Positions 1 to 8,113 of a stretch of 43,449 nucleotides of DNA are shown here, in pieces. The number at the start of each line of letters is the position of its first letter. The stretch's first letter is position 1. The position numbers were made by a program, and so were the translations under genes. The notes under the pieces were generated by a model that was not told the origin of the DNA, ran no database searches, and saw nothing but the letters and a program-made list of their open reading frames with translations. Source of the DNA: an uncultured Bacteroidales bacterium (GTDB lineage Bacteria; Bacteroidota; Bacteroidia; Bacteroidales; UBA932); contig CALUPB010000022.1 in assembly GCA_944322585.1 (NCBI GenBank), forward strand, positions 1 through 43,449. Direction: 5' to 3'.

Positions 1-56
1 ATTTCCCTGTCCACAATTTGTTGTGCTGTCATATCTTTTTCTGTTTGTTGTTCCAT
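1..56 (-). CDS. Hypothetical protein, 5' end only
   Basis: An ATG at 54-56 opens a frame that runs off the left edge (18 complete codons visible, beginning MEQQTEKDM). It lies in the same frame as the 102-residue ORF at 105-413, separated only by one TGA at 105-107 and 16 open codons. It is therefore either a separate gene or the continuation of that ORF. Nothing can be said about function. Confidence 0.3.
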   Translation of the reverse strand, partial: MEQQTEKDMTAQQIVDRE

Positions 57-104
57 GTTTCCAACTCCATTTCGGTCTGTCTGGAAATCAAATCGGGAAT
101 CCTG

Positions 105-413
105 TCATTTCCCCTCCCCGTAATCCACCCACATTTTCTTGGCAAGTCTCCTCAATACCGCATCCCGTGTAAGTGGCTGTCCTGTCACCTGCCGTCCCCA
201 CCAGCAGCAGTCATATTTGCAGAGTACGATTTCTTCCTCTATGCTCAACATCCCTGCGAAGTATGGAGGTACAAGCCACCATTCCTTTACTCCCGTGTCG
301 CTTTCACTGTTCATAAGTCCCTGCCAGATTGTGCTGTCGTGTTTCTTCAGTTCTCTGATGACCTCATGCTGCTCATGAAGCATTGTCCTGTCGATAAGTT
401 CTCTTATTTCCAT
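105..413 (-). CDS. Hypothetical protein, 102 aa, mobile-element cargo
   Basis: The 102-residue frame has a coding-like composition: charged N-terminus MEIRELIDRT, several Trp-containing pairs (EWW, CCWWGR) and a basic end. I do not recognise the family. The frame is also open for about 24 codons upstream of the ATG, so a longer protein is possible. It ends in TGA, but the same frame continues open to the window edge, which makes this one of several places in this element where a TGA interrupts an otherwise open frame. It is the last complete gene of the minus-strand block. Confidence 0.5.
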   Translation of the reverse strand: MEIRELIDRTMLHEQHEVIRELKKHDSTIWQGLMNSESDTGVKEWWLVPPYFAGMLSIEEEIVLCKYDCCWWGRQVTGQPLTRDAVLRRLAKKMWVDYGEGK

Positions 414-803: not shown

Positions 804-938
804 ATATAGTTAATGAGAATCCAATTCAATTTCCACCTTATTTGGAAACCAAACTCCATGATACAAGAAAAGGGAGAACTCATGCTGTCCTCCCCGAATA
901 ATTCAAACTAATTTAATATGGATTTATCTATAATGCAG

Positions 939-1106
939 TTAATTCCGTTTCTTCCTGCTGTCGCTATCCCTAAAGCAAGGCAGATAAATGATTTCTCTGT
1001 CCCAGTCCTCGTCCTCACTGTAGATATACACTGTCCTTGACTTCTCTATCTGTAAAATTATCGGTATATCTATCGTTGTCGTGCATATCAATGGTATTGC
1101 TTTCAT
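939..1106 (-). CDS. Hypothetical small acidic protein, 55 aa
   Basis: ATG at 1104-1106, TAA at 939-941. The first half is hydrophobic and beta-like (IDIPIILQIEKSR); the second half is acidic and aromatic (YSEDEDWDREIIYL) with a basic RKKRN tail, which looks coding. A neighbouring frame over 1020-1200 is also open and coding-like, so a frameshift within an older longer gene is possible. Unrecognised; the position suggests it belongs to the helicase-linked minus-strand set. Confidence 0.42.
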   Translation of the reverse strand: MKAIPLICTTTIDIPIILQIEKSRTVYIYSEDEDWDREIIYLPCFRDSDSRKKRN

Positions 1107-1206
1107 CGCTTCTCTTTTGTTTCTGGTTAATGGAATCTTTTATGTCTGTATCTCTTAAATGGAATCCTGTCCGTTTCCATATAGTGTATCTCTTTATATG
1201 CCAATT

Positions 1207-1353
1207 CTATTTGAAGTTATGCAATATTTTCGAGTTTTCCAAAGTAAATTTTTCTGGATTAACTGGCTTATATATAATGGGATATGTAAAGTCTCCAACT
1301 GAATTTTTCTGTTTATCTGGATTTGCTCTGGAGACTGATTCCCGACAGTACAT
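1207..1353 (-). CDS. Hypothetical small protein, 48 aa
   Basis: ATG at 1351-1353, TAG at 1207-1209. The sequence around NPDKQKNSVGDFTYPI reads like protein. It overlaps the end of the 52-residue ORF (1313-1471) by 41 bases in another frame, so the two are either overlapping genes or frameshifted pieces of one gene. No family recognised. Confidence 0.33.
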   Translation of the reverse strand: MYCRESVSRANPDKQKNSVGDFTYPIIYKPVNPEKFTLENSKILHNFK

Positions 1354-1471
1354 CCGATGTAATATTTTTTATGGCATGAAATGCTATTCTTATAGACACC
1401 TCAATCTCGTGCCATGAAAAATCTGTCCGTTTTTTATCTGGAAGTAGGAGGACATCTTGCAGCCCTCCCAT
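1313..1471 (-). CDS. Hypothetical small protein, 52 aa
   Basis: ATG at 1469-1471, TAA at 1313-1315. Begins MGGLQDVLLLPDKK and continues with an amphipathic stretch (EIEVSIRIAFHAIKNI) likely to be helical. Composition is convincing for a real protein although it is short. It overlaps the UGA-interrupted ORF at 1390-1569 in another frame. Function unknown. Confidence 0.42.
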   Translation of the reverse strand: MGGLQDVLLLPDKKRTDFSWHEIEVSIRIAFHAIKNITSDVLSGISLQSKSR

Positions 1472-1569
1472 TCCACATTAAAAGTTGCTCCGTATGAATC
1501 GGCTGCGGATAATGGTCATACATGATACCGTCCTGCCCTCAATCTTCCTTGACATAGTGCTCGTGTCAT
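1390..1569 (-). pseudogene. Small ORF coupled to helicase gene, interrupted by in-frame UGA
   Basis: An ATG at 1567-1569 follows the helicase stop codon by a single base. The frame runs 17 codons to a TGA at 1516-1518, then stays open for 41 codons of coding-like sequence (for example ADSYGATFNVEWEGCKMSS) to a TAA at 1390-1392. The best-looking part follows the TGA and has no start codon before its internal ATG. Either a Trp codon has mutated to TGA, or UGA is read through. No family recognised. Confidence 0.3.
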
Positions 1570-1570
1570 A

Positions 1571-2680
1571 TCATTGCCCCATATCGGTTGCCTTTGCCCT
1601 CCTGTCTAATCCTACCGTATCGTATATCTTCTGGAGTTCTTCCTTTATCTTCTTCACTGGTATCGGTGTCTGTTTTGGGAATCTCCTGTCAGCCATTTCG
1701 ACTATCTTCAAGTCCGTGTCCACCCTTGACATCGCTGTCAGTGCATCCTGTATAGCCCCGACCCTGTATTTGAGTGCCTTGACCTTTTCATCACCGAGTT
1801 TCGTGTATGCGTCCCTTATGAACGGGTATATCGCTTCCGACAGTTCTATCTCCCAGTCGGTCGTGAACATTATCGGCTTCTCATGCCTTATCTCGCTGTA
1901 CCTCTTGTATATGTCTTCAAAGTTTGTCCTTTTCTCTGTCATTGCCTGTATGTTTTTGGGTGCTGTATAGGAATCGTTGTTCGCTATGCCGATTCCGTTC
2001 TTCTTCATCTCGTCCTCTACCGTTACCTGTGAACTGTACACTCCGTTAATGACCTTGTAGTTCACTATCTCATATTTAGCCATGTTCCTGTCCACAATGA
2101 GTTTCCCGTTGTCCTCTATGACGAACGGCTCGTTTATGTACGGAAGGTTGCGGATTATGCTCGCTCTGAAGTCTTCCGACAGGGCGTTGATGTGTTCCAA
2201 GTCATGTTCCGTCTTTTCCACAGCTTCCCATGTGGCTCTCTCGAACTCCTCTGGGCTTACCGTCCTCTGATTGCCTGTCGCTCCGTACAGATGTATCACT
2301 TCCCCTCCGTATATGCTGTTTCTTACCCTCCCTGCTATCTGGATGAACGATGTGGATATGTCTGGCATCGTGTGCGCCTTGTACGGCTCGCTGACTATGA
2401 ATGTCCGTCCTCTCTCATCGTATATGTCGCATCCCTCGAAAGCGGTTGAAGTGTAGAGGTTGAACATCCTTGTCTGGTCTGCCGTCCTGCTTATCGGGAA
2501 GCCGTGGAGTTTGGCTGTGTTCTGCTTTCCGCTGGACTGTGAGCATACGACCCTTGTGTTGTCTGGTGTGAGACCTGCGTTACGGATTATCCAGTATATG
2601 CCCTCCACACTGTTTAGGAAGATATGGTAGTTGCTGCCGATATTCTCTCTCTTTAGCCTGTTCCTGCATATCCCAGTCAT
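1571..2680 (-). CDS. C-terminal fragment of the interrupted helicase, 369 aa
   Basis: This is the piece that standard-code translation gives, starting at the first ATG (2678-2680) after the second TGA. It carries the helicase C-terminal domain, including the QIAGRVR motif VI, and a long charged C-terminal region. It lacks the ATP-binding half, so alone it could not be a working helicase. Confidence 0.55.
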   Translation of the reverse strand: MTGICRNRLKRENIGSNYHIFLNSVEGIYWIIRNAGLTPDNTRVVCSQSSGKQNTAKLHGFPISRTADQTRMFNLYTSTAFEGCDIYDERGRTFIVSEPYKAHTMPDISTSFIQIAGRVRNSIYGGEVIHLYGATGNQRTVSPEEFERATWEAVEKTEHDLEHINALSEDFRASIIRNLPYINEPFVIEDNGKLIVDRNMAKYEIVNYKVINGVYSSQVTVEDEMKKNGIGIANNDSYTAPKNIQAMTEKRTNFEDIYKRYSEIRHEKPIMFTTDWEIELSEAIYPFIRDAYTKLGDEKVKALKYRVGAIQDALTAMSRVDTDLKIVEMADRRFPKQTPIPVKKIKEELQKIYDTVGLDRRAKATDMGQ

Positions 2681-2740
2681 GTATGCAAGGGGATTGCCCT
2701 CTATCCTGTGGCTTCTGACCTTTACTGGCTCTATGTGCGG

Positions 2741-3247
2741 TCACTCTATCCTGTATTCTGGCATGTCCATAAGTTCCTCCAGCCAGTATGCCCTCTCTAT
2801 CGGGGTGGCGGACATATAGGTTACCCTGTCAAAGTCTTTTGCGATTGCAAGCAGGTTTCGTATCGCCCTGTTTCGGAAACTGTACTGGTTGAACAGTGTA
2901 TGCCATTCGTCCACGCACAGGTGCATTTCTCCAAACGGGTCATAGCCCAACGAATCCAGTATGCTGCACACTTTCGGCAATGAATCGTAGGTGGTGGCTA
3001 TCTTCGGCAGGTCTCCATGTCTGTCCATGTACTTCCGTATCTCCCTTGTCTTGTCTCCCTCACCGTATATCGGAAGCAGGACAGGTCTGCCGTCTCCGTT
3101 GTCTGGGAACTGCAATGCCTTGTTGTCTATGAGTTCCACGAACGGCATCGCTATCAGTGTAGGTGTATTCTGTACCGTTGCCAGTGTAGTCGCTCCGCAT
3201 CCTGTCGTTCCCTTGCTTAATATGCAGTTGGACGGTATCTCTTCCAT
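2741..3247 (-). CDS. N-terminal fragment of the interrupted helicase, 168 aa
   Basis: This is the standard-code piece between the two TGA codons. Its ATG (3245-3247) follows the first TGA directly. It holds the degenerate motif I, the DEWH Walker B and the SATP motif, ending at MPEYRIE. Upstream of the TGA the same frame extends 39 codons to the more natural start at 3367. Confidence 0.5.
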   Translation of the reverse strand: MEEIPSNCILSKGTTGCGATTLATVQNTPTLIAMPFVELIDNKALQFPDNGDGRPVLLPIYGEGDKTREIRKYMDRHGDLPKIATTYDSLPKVCSILDSLGYDPFGEMHLCVDEWHTLFNQYSFRNRAIRNLLAIAKDFDRVTYMSATPIERAYWLEELMDMPEYRIE

Positions 3248-3338
3248 TCAGTCCGTGAGGTATATTGCACCCTCTGGGGCTGTTATCTTCTGGTCTCCTG
3301 TAATCTTTGTCGCATCGGAAATTTCCTGTATTCCTGTT

Positions 3339-3503
3339 TCAGTCAAGGTAATTTTTCTTGTTGTCATATTGCGTATCGAAAATTTGATTTGGAATTAAAA
3401 TGGACTGATATTCAGCCTTATCTCTTTTATATGGAATCTCTTTCGGTCGATTCAGCCACTCAAAAAATATGGTAAGTCAAGGCACAGTTAAGGGAGACGG
3501 CAT
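3339..3503 (-). pseudogene. Small ORF before helicase, interrupted by in-frame UGA
   Basis: ATG 3501-3503 is preceded by a purine-rich GGGAGGGG Shine-Dalgarno-like stretch. After eight codons (MPSPLTVP) there is a TGA at 3477-3479, then 45 open codons of coding-like sequence (starting LTIFFEWLNRPKEIPYK) to a TGA at 3339-3341. No ATG, GTG or TTG exists after the first TGA, so the second part could be made only by readthrough. Its end overlaps the helicase start by 29 bases. It contains the TTTGATTTGGAA-type repeat. Function unknown. Confidence 0.27.
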
Positions 3504-4317: not shown

Positions 4318-5235
4318 ATGGACAGACTTAATTATGTATTTGACATTGCAAGCAGATATGCCCCTCCAGACCTTTATGAAGAAGACGGGGAGATATGCGG
4401 TGACTTTCCAGAAGTGGTGACATGGTTTATGGGGATAGTCGCTGGATGCCACCACTATGACTTCCCATGCTCTTTCAGACAGTTCTGTGACAACAGGGAG
4501 ATTATGGACATCGTGGATGCCTACAATGAACGGATAGGCAGTGGCGGGATGCAGACTTCTGACGGGAAGAAGATTCTCCAGATAGACAAGGAAGCCTTTT
4601 ATTACGGTGTCATGTTCGTGTATTATCTTACGGAGAGGAAATGCACCAACGCAAAGAGAAGTCCAGAAACGGTAAGGCAGCAGTTGCTTAATCTCCGTGA
4701 CAGCCTTTACGATGCGAGACGGTTTACTCTGGAATCAGAAAGAGTGGTGTTCGGGGAAAAGGACGGAAGAAGTACACAAGAGTATGTAAGGAAAGAGCCT
4801 GTAAGGATATATGGCAGGGCACTCATTGCAAACCTCGTACATTGCATAGATATGCTTCTCCAGAAAGATTCGCTGCACTGCGGGTTCGATTCATCTGGTG
4901 CTGGGACTGTGCTGGAAATTCCTCTTGACGATGCGGAGTTTGACCTGTTTGCCACCGATGACAGGGTTACCTATGCCCCGACAAGAAAGGCTTGGATTGC
5001 CATGGACATGCTCAAATACCTTTTCGGGACGATGAATCTTCCAGACCTCCGTGCAAGGAAATGTCTCGATGTCTCGGAGTTCGATGAAAAGGACGAAAAG
5101 TCATACAGCATCAACAGGCTCATTGTCCTTTGTCTGAATCTCATGCGATACACGGACAGCAGAAACGAAAATTTCATAAAAAGTCTTATGTCCAAATACA
5201 AGAATTTCGACCCTAACACTATGGCTGGCTTCTGA
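4318..5235 (+). CDS. Hypothetical protein, 305 aa, mobile-element gene
   Basis: An intact 305-residue frame beginning MDRLNYVFDIASRYAPPDL, with TGA stop followed two codons later by TAG. The product is mostly hydrophilic without signal peptide or clear transmembrane segment, so it is likely cytoplasmic. There are mixed helical stretches and a C-terminal basic tail (IKSLMSKYKNF). No motif or family is recognised. It is divergent from the helicase block and is followed after 147 bases by the 177-residue gene, probably on the same transcript. Confidence 0.75.
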   Translation: MDRLNYVFDIASRYAPPDLYEEDGEICGDFPEVVTWFMGIVAGCHHYDFPCSFRQFCDNREIMDIVDAYNERIGSGGMQTSDGKKILQIDKEAFYYGVMFVYYLTERKCTNAKRSPETVRQQLLNLRDSLYDARRFTLESERVVFGEKDGRSTQEYVRKEPVRIYGRALIANLVHCIDMLLQKDSLHCGFDSSGAGTVLEIPLDDAEFDLFATDDRVTYAPTRKAWIAMDMLKYLFGTMNLPDLRARKCLDVSEFDEKDEKSYSINRLIVLCLNLMRYTDSRNENFIKSLMSKYKNFDPNTMAGF

Positions 5236-5382: not shown

Positions 5383-5916
5383 ATGAATAGTATTAAAAAT
5401 TTCGAGGGAAACCTCACAGAGGCTGCTAAGGTAGCGAACAATGTTGAATCAACAAATGTTTCATCCGTAAAGACTGCTGAATCTGCAAGACCGCAGAGAA
5501 GCACGACCAAATCACAGTTCTGGGGTGTAATCACTAAAGCCAGACGGGCTTTCAATAATCAGCTGCATAAGGACAATGCGGTTAAACTGGAGTGCGTGGA
5601 ACATTACATCCCTACAATCACGACCGATGATGTCAAGTTCTGGGCTGACTATATGGACGAAGTAAATGTGCTGCTGGACAGCCGTAAATTTGGGAAAGAA
5701 TGTTCCGACCTCGGAATTGACCCGACCACTCTTGCAACCCATATCATCTTTCTCGGTGTCGGGATGAGAAATAAGGTGATGAAATACGGAATCCGCTCTG
5801 CCATTGGAAACGATTACATCCTTTATAAGGACAAGTTTGTTTCGGAGGATGCAATGCAGTTCGTTCTGGATTATGAGCCAGAGAAAAGGAAAGAATCTAC
5901 CGAAACGGCAGCATAG
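5383..5916 (+). CDS. Hypothetical protein, 177 aa, mobile-element gene
   Basis: An intact frame with ATG just after a very A/T-rich leader (typical of Bacteroidetes initiation regions) and a TAG stop. The first 45 residues are low in hydrophobics and rich in Ser, Thr, Asn and Ala (a flexible tail), followed by a compact mixed domain (about 46-165) and an EKRKES-type charged end. It is likely a soluble cytoplasmic protein. No family recognised. A hairpin terminator follows. Confidence 0.75.
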   Translation: MNSIKNFEGNLTEAAKVANNVESTNVSSVKTAESARPQRSTTKSQFWGVITKARRAFNNQLHKDNAVKLECVEHYIPTITTDDVKFWADYMDEVNVLLDSRKFGKECSDLGIDPTTLATHIIFLGVGMRNKVMKYGIRSAIGNDYILYKDKFVSEDAMQFVLDYEPEKRKESTETAA

Positions 5917-6000: not shown

Positions 6001-6486
6001 TCATTGTGGCTGCGTTGAAAATACATCCTTGATTTCCTGTGAATAGATGATACTGCCATACGGGAATGTCAGTTTCCTGTTCTGGAATGTCCTGCCGTTG
6101 GAGGTGCGGATAAAGTCTTTGAGACCTTGACAGTATTCCAAATGACGGTACATGTGGGATTGCAGCCAGTTTATGCCATGTGTCATTATCGGGTCTGGAG
6201 TGAAGTTGCCGACATCAACAAGACCGTCCTTGCCTTTCATGAGGAAACAGAGGATAAAGGATTCTATCTCTTTGTTTAGACATAACTTGAAATCCAGTTC
6301 GGTACATCCACCATAACGAAGTCCTGTCCAGTAGTATGCCTGTCCAGACTGGTCTATGCGTGGTGTGAGGATGAGTGAAGTATCATCATAGTTCTTTGCT
6401 GCCACTCTGATGATGCTGATGATTTTCTCTGTGCTCATGTGTTTGAGTTCGAGCCTTTGATAAGGGATAAATGATTGATTGTTCAT
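6001..6486 (-). CDS. Hypothetical protein, 161 aa, mobile-element gene
   Basis: Intact frame with start MNNQSFIPYQRLEL and TGA stop. The protein looks soluble and globular, with a Tyr/Trp/Gly-rich centre (QAYYWTGLRYGGCTEL) and a hydrophobic helix around CFLMKGKDGL. It lies 112 bases downstream of, and co-directional with, the integrase, so the two may be co-transcribed. TGA is used here as a genuine stop, since reading through would run over the convergent gene. No family recognised. Confidence 0.7.
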   Translation of the reverse strand: MNNQSFIPYQRLELKHMSTEKIISIIRVAAKNYDDTSLILTPRIDQSGQAYYWTGLRYGGCTELDFKLCLNKEIESFILCFLMKGKDGLVDVGNFTPDPIMTHGINWLQSHMYRHLEYCQGLKDFIRTSNGRTFQNRKLTFPYGSIIYSQEIKDVFSTQPQ

Positions 6487-6598: not shown

Positions 6599-7816
6599 TC
6601 ACAGCAGATTCTTCATCGCTTCATCTATCTGGGAGTTCTCGAAACTGTCGAGATAAATCTGGGTGGTTTCAAGGTCGGAATGTCCGAGACTTTCGCTGAT
6701 GATTGCTATGTTCACTCCAGACCTTTTCAAGACGGTTGCGAATGTATGTCGGGCAACATAGGTCGTGAGATTCACATGCAAGCCAGCCATTTCCGCTATC
6801 CGTTTCAAGTTGGAGTTGACATGACCAATTACCTTATGGACACGGTTGCAAATCTGCTGTTCGCTCTTATGGATATGCCTGTCGAGTATCGGAAAGATAT
6901 AATCATCTGGACTTGCGTCTGATTTGGAATACCTTTCCAGTATGTTCCTTGTCTGCGGAAGTATCGGGCTGTTGAGTTCCTTGCCTGTCTTGTGCCGCTG
7001 GTAGTAGATTCTGCCGTTCTGGATGTCACTGTACCGCAATGTGGCTATGTCCTTGAAGTTTATCCCTGCCACACAATAGCTGAACAGGAATATGTCCCGT
7101 GCGAATGAGAGCGAGTATGATTCAGTGCTTTCTGGAAGTTCAAGCGACTGTATCTTCTGCACATCCTCTTTGGTTATTGCCCTCTTTCGGGTAGGTTTCC
7201 AGAATCTTCCAATGTTGTATTGCTTGAATGGATTATCCGTCTCTGCAAATACTTTCTGCTTGACAGCCTTGTTATATACCGCACGAAGTACACTGAATGA
7301 GGTCGCAAGACTGTTGCTGCTGTTGCCTTTTCTGGTCATGTATGCTTCAAAGTCCTGCAGAAATTGCAAATCCACCTGCTCGAACCGCTTCTTTCCCAAA
7401 CCACATTGTTCCAAAAGACTTTTGCAGGTCTCGTATTTGCCAGCCGTACCTACCTTGCCTATGCCTTTCAGATAGTCAATCTGTTGCTGGAAGTATTCGG
7501 ATATGGTGCAGTTGATATACCTGCTTTTCTGACCGAACAGGGTATCGAAATTGACATCTGCATCAAGTGCTTCAAGTCGTTGAATTTTCTTCTCTATCTC
7601 CAGCCTCTTTGCCGTTATCTGCATCTGCAAGGCATCGGAATCTGGATATGTGGAGACAATATGCTGCTCGGAATCATCCCATGCGTCAAGAGGAAGTACA
7701 ATTCCTGTTGCAAGATAGCGTACTTTGCCTTTAAGGGTAAATCTTATATGTATCGGAGCGGCATTTGATTTACTTGTCTTATCTTTCCTTTGAACAATTT
7801 TTATATTGATACTCAT
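6599..7816 (-). CDS. Tyrosine recombinase (site-specific integrase)
   Basis: The 405-residue length and architecture match Bacteroidetes phage-type integrases: an arm-binding N-terminus (to about residue 90, KDKTSKSNAAPIHIRFTLKG), a SAM-like core-binding domain (about 105-200) and a catalytic domain. Catalytic features include the lysine segment QRHKTGKEL, the VARHTFATVL box, LGHSDLETT and the tyrosine of TTQIYL (about residue 388), with the common AMKNLL end. The usual box I Arg appears replaced (AGINFKDIATL) and the box II His is Tyr (TYVARH), as seen in IntDOT-like Bacteroides enzymes. Pointing away from the tRNA-Gly, it presumably integrates the element at the tRNA 3' end by strand exchange. 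Confidence 0.92.
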   Translation of the reverse strand: MSINIKIVQRKDKTSKSNAAPIHIRFTLKGKVRYLATGIVLPLDAWDDSEQHIVSTYPDSDALQMQITAKRLEIEKKIQRLEALDADVNFDTLFGQKSRYINCTISEYFQQQIDYLKGIGKVGTAGKYETCKSLLEQCGLGKKRFEQVDLQFLQDFEAYMTRKGNSSNSLATSFSVLRAVYNKAVKQKVFAETDNPFKQYNIGRFWKPTRKRAITKEDVQKIQSLELPESTESYSLSFARDIFLFSYCVAGINFKDIATLRYSDIQNGRIYYQRHKTGKELNSPILPQTRNILERYSKSDASPDDYIFPILDRHIHKSEQQICNRVHKVIGHVNSNLKRIAEMAGLHVNLTTYVARHTFATVLKRSGVNIAIISESLGHSDLETTQIYLDSFENSQIDEAMKNLL

Positions 7817-8036: not shown

Positions 8037-8040
8037 ATGG

Positions 8041-8062
8041 AGCGGAAAACGAGACTCGAACT
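8041..8062. other. Probable attachment site (attR-type) at tRNA 3' end
   Basis: The 3' half of the tRNA-Gly gene borders the element and stays intact, as expected when the element carries the matching tRNA 3' sequence. The exact core length cannot be read because the partner copy is outside the window. Confidence 0.4.
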
Positions 8063-8113
8063 CGCGACCCCAACCTTGGCAAGGTTGTGCTCTACCAACT
8101 GAGCTATTTCCGC
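8041..8113 (-). tRNA. tRNA-Gly (anticodon GCC)
   Basis: The minus strand reads as a full cloverleaf: acceptor stem GCGGAAA pairing with TTTCCGC, D arm GCTC...GAGC, anticodon stem ACCTT/AAGGT-type arms around the loop with anticodon GCC, T arm with GTTCGAGTC, and a final T discriminator; CCA is not encoded. It decodes glycine GGC/GGU codons. It lies downstream of pheS on the same strand, and its 3' end borders the integrated element, marking it as the likely insertion target. Confidence 0.95.

Follow-up and report, generated by a model that had tools for sequence, protein, structure and literature searches.

Does a frame that is interrupted by TGA codons, and by no other stop codon, encode a working protein in a bacterium that ends many of its own genes with UGA? 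The question is raised by a helicase-type gene in contig C22 (CALUPB010000022.1) of an uncultured Bacteroidales genome (termed G000, 93.5% complete). The stretch analyzed here, termed the window, is the entire contig of 43,449 nucleotides, and the gene lies in a tRNA-targeted integrative element at its left end. The comparisons below indicate that the gene very probably encodes a complete superfamily 2 (SF2) helicase of about 629 residues, belonging to a tRNA-Gly-integrated element of about 12.6 kb, and that it reads UGA as tryptophan (Trp) while its neighbors and the host use UGA as a stop.

An earlier sequence-only reading of the window described a helicase frame at 1571–3367 with two TGA codons and no TAA or TAG. 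The frame is present on the minus strand (3367–1571), with TGA at 3250–3248 (codon 40) and 2743–2741 (codon 209), but its end point has to be moved. The TGA at 1573–1571 (codon 599) is a third Trp-like UGA, after which the frame continues for 30 codons to a TAA at 1480–1478. These 30 codons are conserved and align with relatives that have UGG at position 599. The gene and its UGA codons are as follows (residue counts are from the alignment described below).

1478..3367, minus strand: SF2-type helicase gene (as judged by alignment and model), 629 codons before the TAA; UGA at codons 40, 209 and 599
3248..3250, minus strand: UGA codon 40; UGA in 17 rows, UGG in 0, Phe in 17, other residues in 5 (39 rows)
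2741..2743, minus strand: UGA codon 209; UGA in 15 rows, UGG in 24, nothing else (39 rows)
1571..1573, minus strand: UGA codon 599; UGA in 14 rows, UGG in 16, Tyr in 1, Phe in 1 (32 rows with a residue)

The alignment consists of 39 family members including that of the window, taken from genome and virus loci, with frames read from stop to stop and TAA and TAG as the only stops. Left out were 11 loci (duplicates and the distant L056 and L059), the window copy L046, second matches per locus, and frames shorter than 250 codons, e.g. the G097 fragment (L055). The earlier suggestion that the UGA contexts fit Trp holds well for codons 209, where Trp is found throughout, and 599, which is mostly UGA or UGG; at codon 40 the relatives show no UGG. 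Column 155 has UGG in 24 rows and UGA in three (Tyr in nine, Ala in two, Glu in one), and several further columns have UGA where relatives show no Trp.

The 39 frames were selected for their lack of TAA and TAG, and a fairer test is a six-frame search in which stops are read through and counted. In 199 genomes of the same family this gave 12 matches of at least 38% identity (the window's included), with 25 TGA and no TAA or TAG, a difference beyond chance. Two distant matches (28%–30%) had no stops, and one distant match (27%) from another search contained a TAG. Among 393 genomes of the order there were nine matches in eight genomes, four with TGA (3, 4, 1 and 5) and five without a stop. The helicase of Alistipes muris (DSM 112343) has four UGAs and one UGG; as this is an isolate, misassembly of metagenome bins is not the cause of the UGAs.

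The sequence on each side of the UGAs was compared by codon position. Between the window and nine relatives, third-position differences exceed those at first and second positions in segments 41–208, 210–598 and 600–629 in nine of nine comparisons. In segment 1–39 the excess is weak in L015–L017 and absent in L018; thus the first codons appear to be less constrained and the start codon is uncertain. These data bear on the alternative that the gene is a pseudogene with nonsense mutations, which the sequence-only reading had raised as G-to-A decay. In-frame stops under the host's code are in line with it, but mixed stop types and relaxed selection are not found: close matches show TGA only, UGA sites are shared across 40%–90% identity and exchange with UGG, the purifying pattern persists past the UGAs, and an isolate carries four of them. 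Decay is therefore exceedingly improbable. A selenoprotein was also considered and rejected, as columns 209 and 599 align with Trp and no UCA tRNA was found in G000. Homologues, UGA/UGG exchange, conserved sequence past each UGA and the absence of TAA and TAG from close relatives together support the assignment of UGA to Trp in this gene.

Another alternative is that the UGAs are real stops and that fragments are made by restart at nearby AUGs. At window positions 3245–3250 UGA codon 40 is followed immediately by AUG (UGAAUG), so that restart as well as readthrough is possible there. Of the 17 rows with UGA40, 16 show an AUG right after it, and UGA209 lies between the two RecA-like parts (as placed in this analysis), which would suit a split product. 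Against this, the UGA sites are not the same in all relatives, and an invariant Trp is written as UGA in some and as UGG in others; sequence is conserved after codon 599 and partly before codon 40; and 8 of the 23 rows that cluster in the tree (see below) have UGG at 209 and hence no split at this point. Separate products are very unlikely.

With the UGAs read as Trp, the protein displays features of an SF2 helicase. It has two RecA-like parts, and the sequences GTTGCGATT, DEWH and SATP, which are taken here to be Walker A and DExH-type SF2 motifs. An AlphaFold2 model built on 26 aligned sequences has a mean predicted local distance difference test score (pLDDT) of 76.6 and a predicted template modeling (pTM) score of 0.64. 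Past codon 599, strands at 600–609 and 612–622 are predicted to form a beta hairpin (mean pLDDT 84 for block 601–610 and 86 for 611–620). A fold search of the PDB points to SF2 helicases (best E-value = 1.5e-9), with low TM-scores. The best viral fold match is A0A5P8D573, an uncharacterized protein of 606 residues (E-value = 1.7e-34, 22% identity), followed by several annotated helicases and replication origin-binding proteins. The fold is thus similar to that of SF2 helicases and replication origin-binding proteins from phages and giant viruses, but identity is low and none of the curated families is matched above its cut-off (Pfam SNF2, E-value = 0.024; PADLOC DpdE, E-value = 0.0084; no match in NCBIfam); a profile sequence search of the PDB gave no match. 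The nearest relatives are in records labeled uncultured Bacteroidales and Candidatus Cryptobacteroides. Relatives of 24%–29% identity are found in six phage records and 17 plasmids, 16 of the latter from Acinetobacter. A fair guess is that the helicase acts in replication of the excised element.

Is the reading of UGA as Trp a property of the whole element? The other features of the element are listed here.

105..413, minus strand: conserved Trp-rich gene of 102 residues (EWWLV...WWGR); its matches in 19 UGA-clade loci have 0 UGA and 96 UGG
3458..3474, minus strand: TACCATATTTTTTGAGT motif 5′ of the helicase, resembling a promoter or operator and retained in several relatives (comparison of upstream regions)
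4318..5235, plus strand: gene of 305 residues, no known family, standard code, TGA stop (frame and family searches)
5383..5916, plus strand: gene of 177 residues, no known family, standard code, TAG stop (frame and family searches)
6001..6486, minus strand: gene of 161 residues, no known family, TGA stop (frame and family searches)
6599..7816, minus strand: tyrosine-type integrase, 405 residues, TGA stop (frame and family searches)
8038..8113, minus strand: tRNA-Gly(GCC), integration site on the left attachment (attL) side (direct repeats in relatives)
L013 19183–19289, L017 16761–16867 and L103 1949–2055 (contig C5 of G000): tRNA-Gly-like gene at the right attachment site (attR), scored as tRNA by Infernal and given no call by ARAGORN

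The tRNA-Gly(GCC) and the tyrosine integrase beside it define the left end of the element. In relatives the far end of the element repeats the end of the tRNA in direct orientation (82 nt, 98% identity in L013). Window positions 1–77 are identical, in reverse, to positions 1–77 of contig C5 of G000; thus the contig begins within the element, which continues on C5 and has its second tRNA end, the right end of the window's copy, at ~4498–4562 of that contig. By arithmetic from both ends, the element spans about 12.6 kb across the two contigs. With a tyrosine integrase beside a tRNA and direct repeats at both ends, it is a tRNA-targeted integrative element. Its components are the integrase, the helicase and small proteins without a known family, to which relatives add surface-protein cargo. 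These parts do not establish the element as a phage. No packaging or capsid genes were noted in it, and a PHROG search confined to five window proteins gave no match better than E-value = 0.01.

Restriction to the helicase is marked. In loci of the UGA group, the best matches to the integrase and the 161-, 177-, 305- and 102-residue genes (19, 11, 10, 3 and 19 loci, respectively) contain one UGA and 182 UGG, and the sole UGA belongs to a 29% match in L022, possibly a different integrase. The proposal that UGA is Trp in only part of the element finds support for the helicase alone, and a block of several recoded genes finds none. The right half of the element is clean, as had been said, with three genes rather than two ending in TGA (the integrase and the 161- and 305-residue genes) and the 177-residue gene ending in TAG. 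Three further short frames had been put forward as UGA-holding genes, at 3477, 1516 and 903; none is among the window's conserved UGA-holding frames of at least 50 codons, and all three were rejected as genes. The first overlies the T-rich motif (minus strand, 3474–3458) kept upstream of several helicases and is more likely a control region, and the second overlaps the final helicase codons in another frame. For the third, absence from this list is the only and weak evidence, as shorter frames would be missed.

In the host, UGA is a working stop codon. In sampled stretches (genes of at least 200 codons) UGA ends 68 of 147 genes in G000; for Alistipes the counts are 31 of 99 (A. muris) and 31 of 101 (Zagget8), compared with 12 of 49 genes for Parabacteroides and 13 of 65 for Dysgonomonas mossii. 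Within the next three codons, another stop was found past UGA in 12 of 68 G000 genes, past TAA in 5 of 57 and past TAG in 5 of 22, i.e. it is not clearly commoner after UGA. UGA is thus not freely read in the host, and a genome-wide assignment of UGA to Trp is rejected. A scan of ~880 kb from five genomes (~680 kb from three UGA carriers) for other UGA-Trp genes gave seven candidates in two carriers, all judged by eye to be neighboring genes sharing a frame; the scan is insensitive, and the helicase itself failed its filter. Under the standard code, genes like this one break into pieces.

Several observations concern the surroundings of the gene in related elements. The Trp-rich protein of about 100 residues (window 105–413; L013 12908–13198) is conserved in these elements, and searches gave no known family. 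A palindromic-ended repeat of 71–73 bases flanks the helicase gene in L017 (9846–9916 and 11891–11961) and L018 (9835–9907 and 11879–11951); considered as a cis signal, it looks like a promoter or operator. A T-rich motif, similar by eye, is also found upstream of the UGA-free helicase of L044. Cargo in three elements consists of BACON and leucine-rich-repeat proteins, probably surface proteins (L013 14780–17917, L017 14664–15587, L133 6822–7892), and a DUF2971 protein at L013 17963–18766 matches the PADLOC candidate defence family PDC-S31 (E-value = 2.7e-29). The attR tRNA-Gly-like gene (GCC) has ~31 extra hairpin-like bases in its D loop.

How are the UGAs distributed in the helicase family? 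In a FastTree phylogeny 23 UGA-holding rows cluster, with the helicases of Dysgonomonas, Parabacteroides, Seramator, Tannerella and Paludibacter as neighbors. Support is 0.966 for the sister group and 0.975 for the sister and UGA groups together; the placement of L009 in the UGA group is weak (0.182). By reading of the tree, UGA and UGG appear to have been exchanged within the group at least three times at position 209 and at least four times at 599. Outside the group, gene-body UGA is found in Paludibacter L033 (a single UGA at column 471, with UGG in the neighboring Seramator) and in the distant L045 (beyond the matched part). The UGA-free hosts G359, G420 and G548, whose genes have no internal stops, are not in the tree.

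The position of the UGAs is uneven. In the 23 grouped rows, Trp codons before column 126, i.e. ahead of or at the ATP-binding motif, are UGA 23 times and never UGG; later Trp codons are UGA 41 times and UGG 70 times (Fisher test 3.4e-9, uncorrected for relatedness). An early UGA is present in 21 of the 23 rows: at residue 40 in 17 rows, two of which have a further UGA at residue 33, and at residue 26 in four Alistipes rows. With the nearest AUG as start, the early UGA in Alistipes is codon 4 (L019, L035), 5 (A. muris, L038) or 7 (L036). The remaining 16 rows have no early UGG and one early UGA (L011, near the likely start). This suggests that the early UGA may be selected as such, as a gate, which is the most interpretive step of the analysis. 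Ordinary cells mostly stop at UGA, so each UGA would reduce helicase output, and a UGA ahead of the ATP-binding motif would end untimely synthesis early. That the helicase is throttled at translation by its UGAs is the somewhat favored interpretation.

What might read the UGAs? A UCA-anticodon tRNA, for which the sequence-only reading had proposed a search, was found neither in the scanned element loci, nor among 41 Rfam tRNA matches in G000 (30 and 11 loci looked at), nor by ARAGORN among 42 Rfam matches in A. muris, where one locus, an attR remnant, gave no call. Two of the 11 G000 loci were also without an ARAGORN call: the tRNA-like gene on C5, read as GCC, and C13:1–73 at a contig end, which was not typed. 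The attR tRNA-like gene was considered as a decoder and rejected for its GCC anticodon. A resident suppressor tRNA or other decoding factor, in this or another element, could nonetheless have been missed by the tools. Such factors appear often to go unseen, as according to a review (PMC10136315) a matching suppressor tRNA is present in only 35% of TGA-recoded phage genomes, and a tRNA-like gene does stand at attR. With the GCC anticodon of the latter, and no UCA tRNA in the scanned loci and two genomes, a missed factor is improbable.

The host's own tRNA-Trp is a better candidate. The single tRNA-Trp found in G000 has the anticodon CCA. It was typed in 32 hosts; G591, G593 and G601 (hosts of L016 and L023 with UGA, and of L032 without) are outside this typing, G097 (one TGA) is among the 18 typed UGA hosts, and G359, G420 and G548 are among the 13 UGA-free hosts. 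All 18 UGA hosts other than Paludibacter (17 in the tree plus G097) have an unusual tRNA-Trp(CCA) with U11-A24 or A11-U24, G27-U43 and a four-base variable loop, whereas 12 of 13 hosts of UGA-free helicases have an ordinary one with G24, a Watson-Crick 27-43 pair and a five-base loop. The unusual form is thus found in 18 of 19 UGA hosts compared with 1 of 13 UGA-free hosts (Fisher test 7e-7, from hand-entered counts, uncorrected for ancestry). Many carriers have A24, and all 18 typed UGA-clade hosts have U43. G041, of the window's genus and without a helicase match, also has U11-A24 and G27-U43; thus the unusual tRNA-Trp looks like a host trait and not an element-borne one. According to PMC13092985, the G24A (Hirsh suppressor), C27A and G43U changes in tRNA-Trp mediate UGA readthrough, as does A9C; readthrough by G24A is also described in PMC11805395. 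The resemblance of the host tRNA-Trp to these variants is suggestive only. The likeliest decoder, although with less than even confidence, is the host tRNA-Trp(CCA), in which pairs specific to the lineage at the hinge and in the anticodon stem (U11-A24 or A11-U24, G27-U43) are like known UGA-reading changes.

A number of points weigh against this interpretation. Paludibacter (L033) has one UGA-Trp and an ordinary tRNA-Trp, and in a metagenome-assembled genome of Sphingobacterium (L042) the unusual tRNA occurs with a UGA-free gene. Alistipes SUG166 (L178, L194), a single metagenome bin counted with the 18, holds both types of tRNA-Trp, possibly by contamination. One shared ancestry of hosts and helicase may explain the correlation, and the hosts may well form a single lineage. 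In the window's own host, position 24 is U rather than A; the G27-U43 combination is still a pair and so differs from the tested G43U change; and an earlier in vitro study, as told in PMC13092985, found C27A alone to be without effect. In the sampled G000 DNA, UGA is the most frequent stop and C the most frequent next base, which disfavors strong general reading of UGA. An early UGA is missing from L020 and L009, two of the 23 grouped rows; the place of L009 in the group is the weak one, and re-rooting removed the support figure of the UGA group.

A reading by phage suppressor is ranked second, after host tRNA-Trp. The element would be a satellite locked by its code, whose helicase is made only on infection by a UGA=Trp phage that brings a UCA suppressor tRNA, the helper's code being the start signal; if such a phage triggers the helicase, a satellite would sense its helper by genetic code. 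UGA-recoded phages can carry such tRNAs: the Zeta crAss-like phage Lera uses TGA as Trp in 41 open reading frames and has tRNA-SUP-TCA (PMC12386605), and a scan for Trp-type UCA anticodon arms yielded 109 viral stretches, with an ARAGORN UCA tRNA (labeled SeC) in 37 of 80 examined. That early Trp codons are always UGA within the group, that UGA is confined to a replication-type gene and that UGA is a working host stop would all suit it. However, no helper phage was identified, the 109 stretches are without host assignment, the element lacks noted packaging or capsid genes, and the tRNA-Trp correlation is not predicted. This account is unlikely, if less so than a missed factor. The best overall explanation, a real helicase gene with UGA as Trp whose output is throttled by stop reading, probably through the host tRNA-Trp, is given about an even chance.

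The system may be compared with others. Code-4 (UGA=Trp) phages such as Lera share UGA at Trp sites, here in the helicase only (PMC12386605), and crAss-like phages with an alternate code likewise live in hosts that keep the standard one (PMC10136315). Lera has 41 recoded frames and encodes a UCA suppressor tRNA, whereas here there is one gene in a small integrative element, with no suppressor tRNA found and no virion genes noted. Many recoded genes, or a recoded late block, are typical of code-4 phages, and the ratio of 1 UGA to 182 UGG in the other genes is unlike this. An encoded UCA tRNA was also not found, although the scans may overlook a divergent form, and according to the same review (PMC10136315) such a tRNA is missing from many recoded phages. 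Like the variant tRNA-Trp(CCA) that read UGA (Hirsh G24A, A9C and a form with a 4-bp anticodon stem; PMC13092985), the host tRNA is CCA, with A24 in many hosts and U43. It differs from the 4-bp form in that 27-43 is G-U and five pairs are kept, and the window's host has U24; the likeness is one of sequence only.

A further comparison is with programmed readthrough. Genes with programmed stop-codon readthrough have an in-frame stop and conserved sequence after it. The helicase gene shares both features, and differs in having two to five UGAs per gene that alternate with UGG. A literature search, whose coverage lacked many subscription papers, showed no account of UGA recoding limited to one gene of an integrative element other than a phage. 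The data suggest a form of stop-codon recoding that is confined to one gene of an element. They point to recoding of stops gene by gene in a mobile element not established as a phage, within hosts that have UGA as a common stop.

How TGA-recoded phages without a matching suppressor tRNA are read is a question posed by the review cited above (PMC10136315). The host tRNA-Trp type, which tracks the use of UGA as Trp, is a concrete and inexpensively testable candidate answer. If leaky reading by host tRNA-Trp is true, it suggests how some UGA-recoded phages cope without a suppressor tRNA. It is possible, although doubtful, that the helicase is fully translated only in lineages with a UGA-leaky tRNA-Trp(CCA), so that decoding of a single gene by the host would act both as a throttle and as a host-range barrier. 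Relatives of the helicase in other gut bacteria also spell Trp with the host's stop codon, which suggests a gene bounded by the cell's efficiency at reading UGA.

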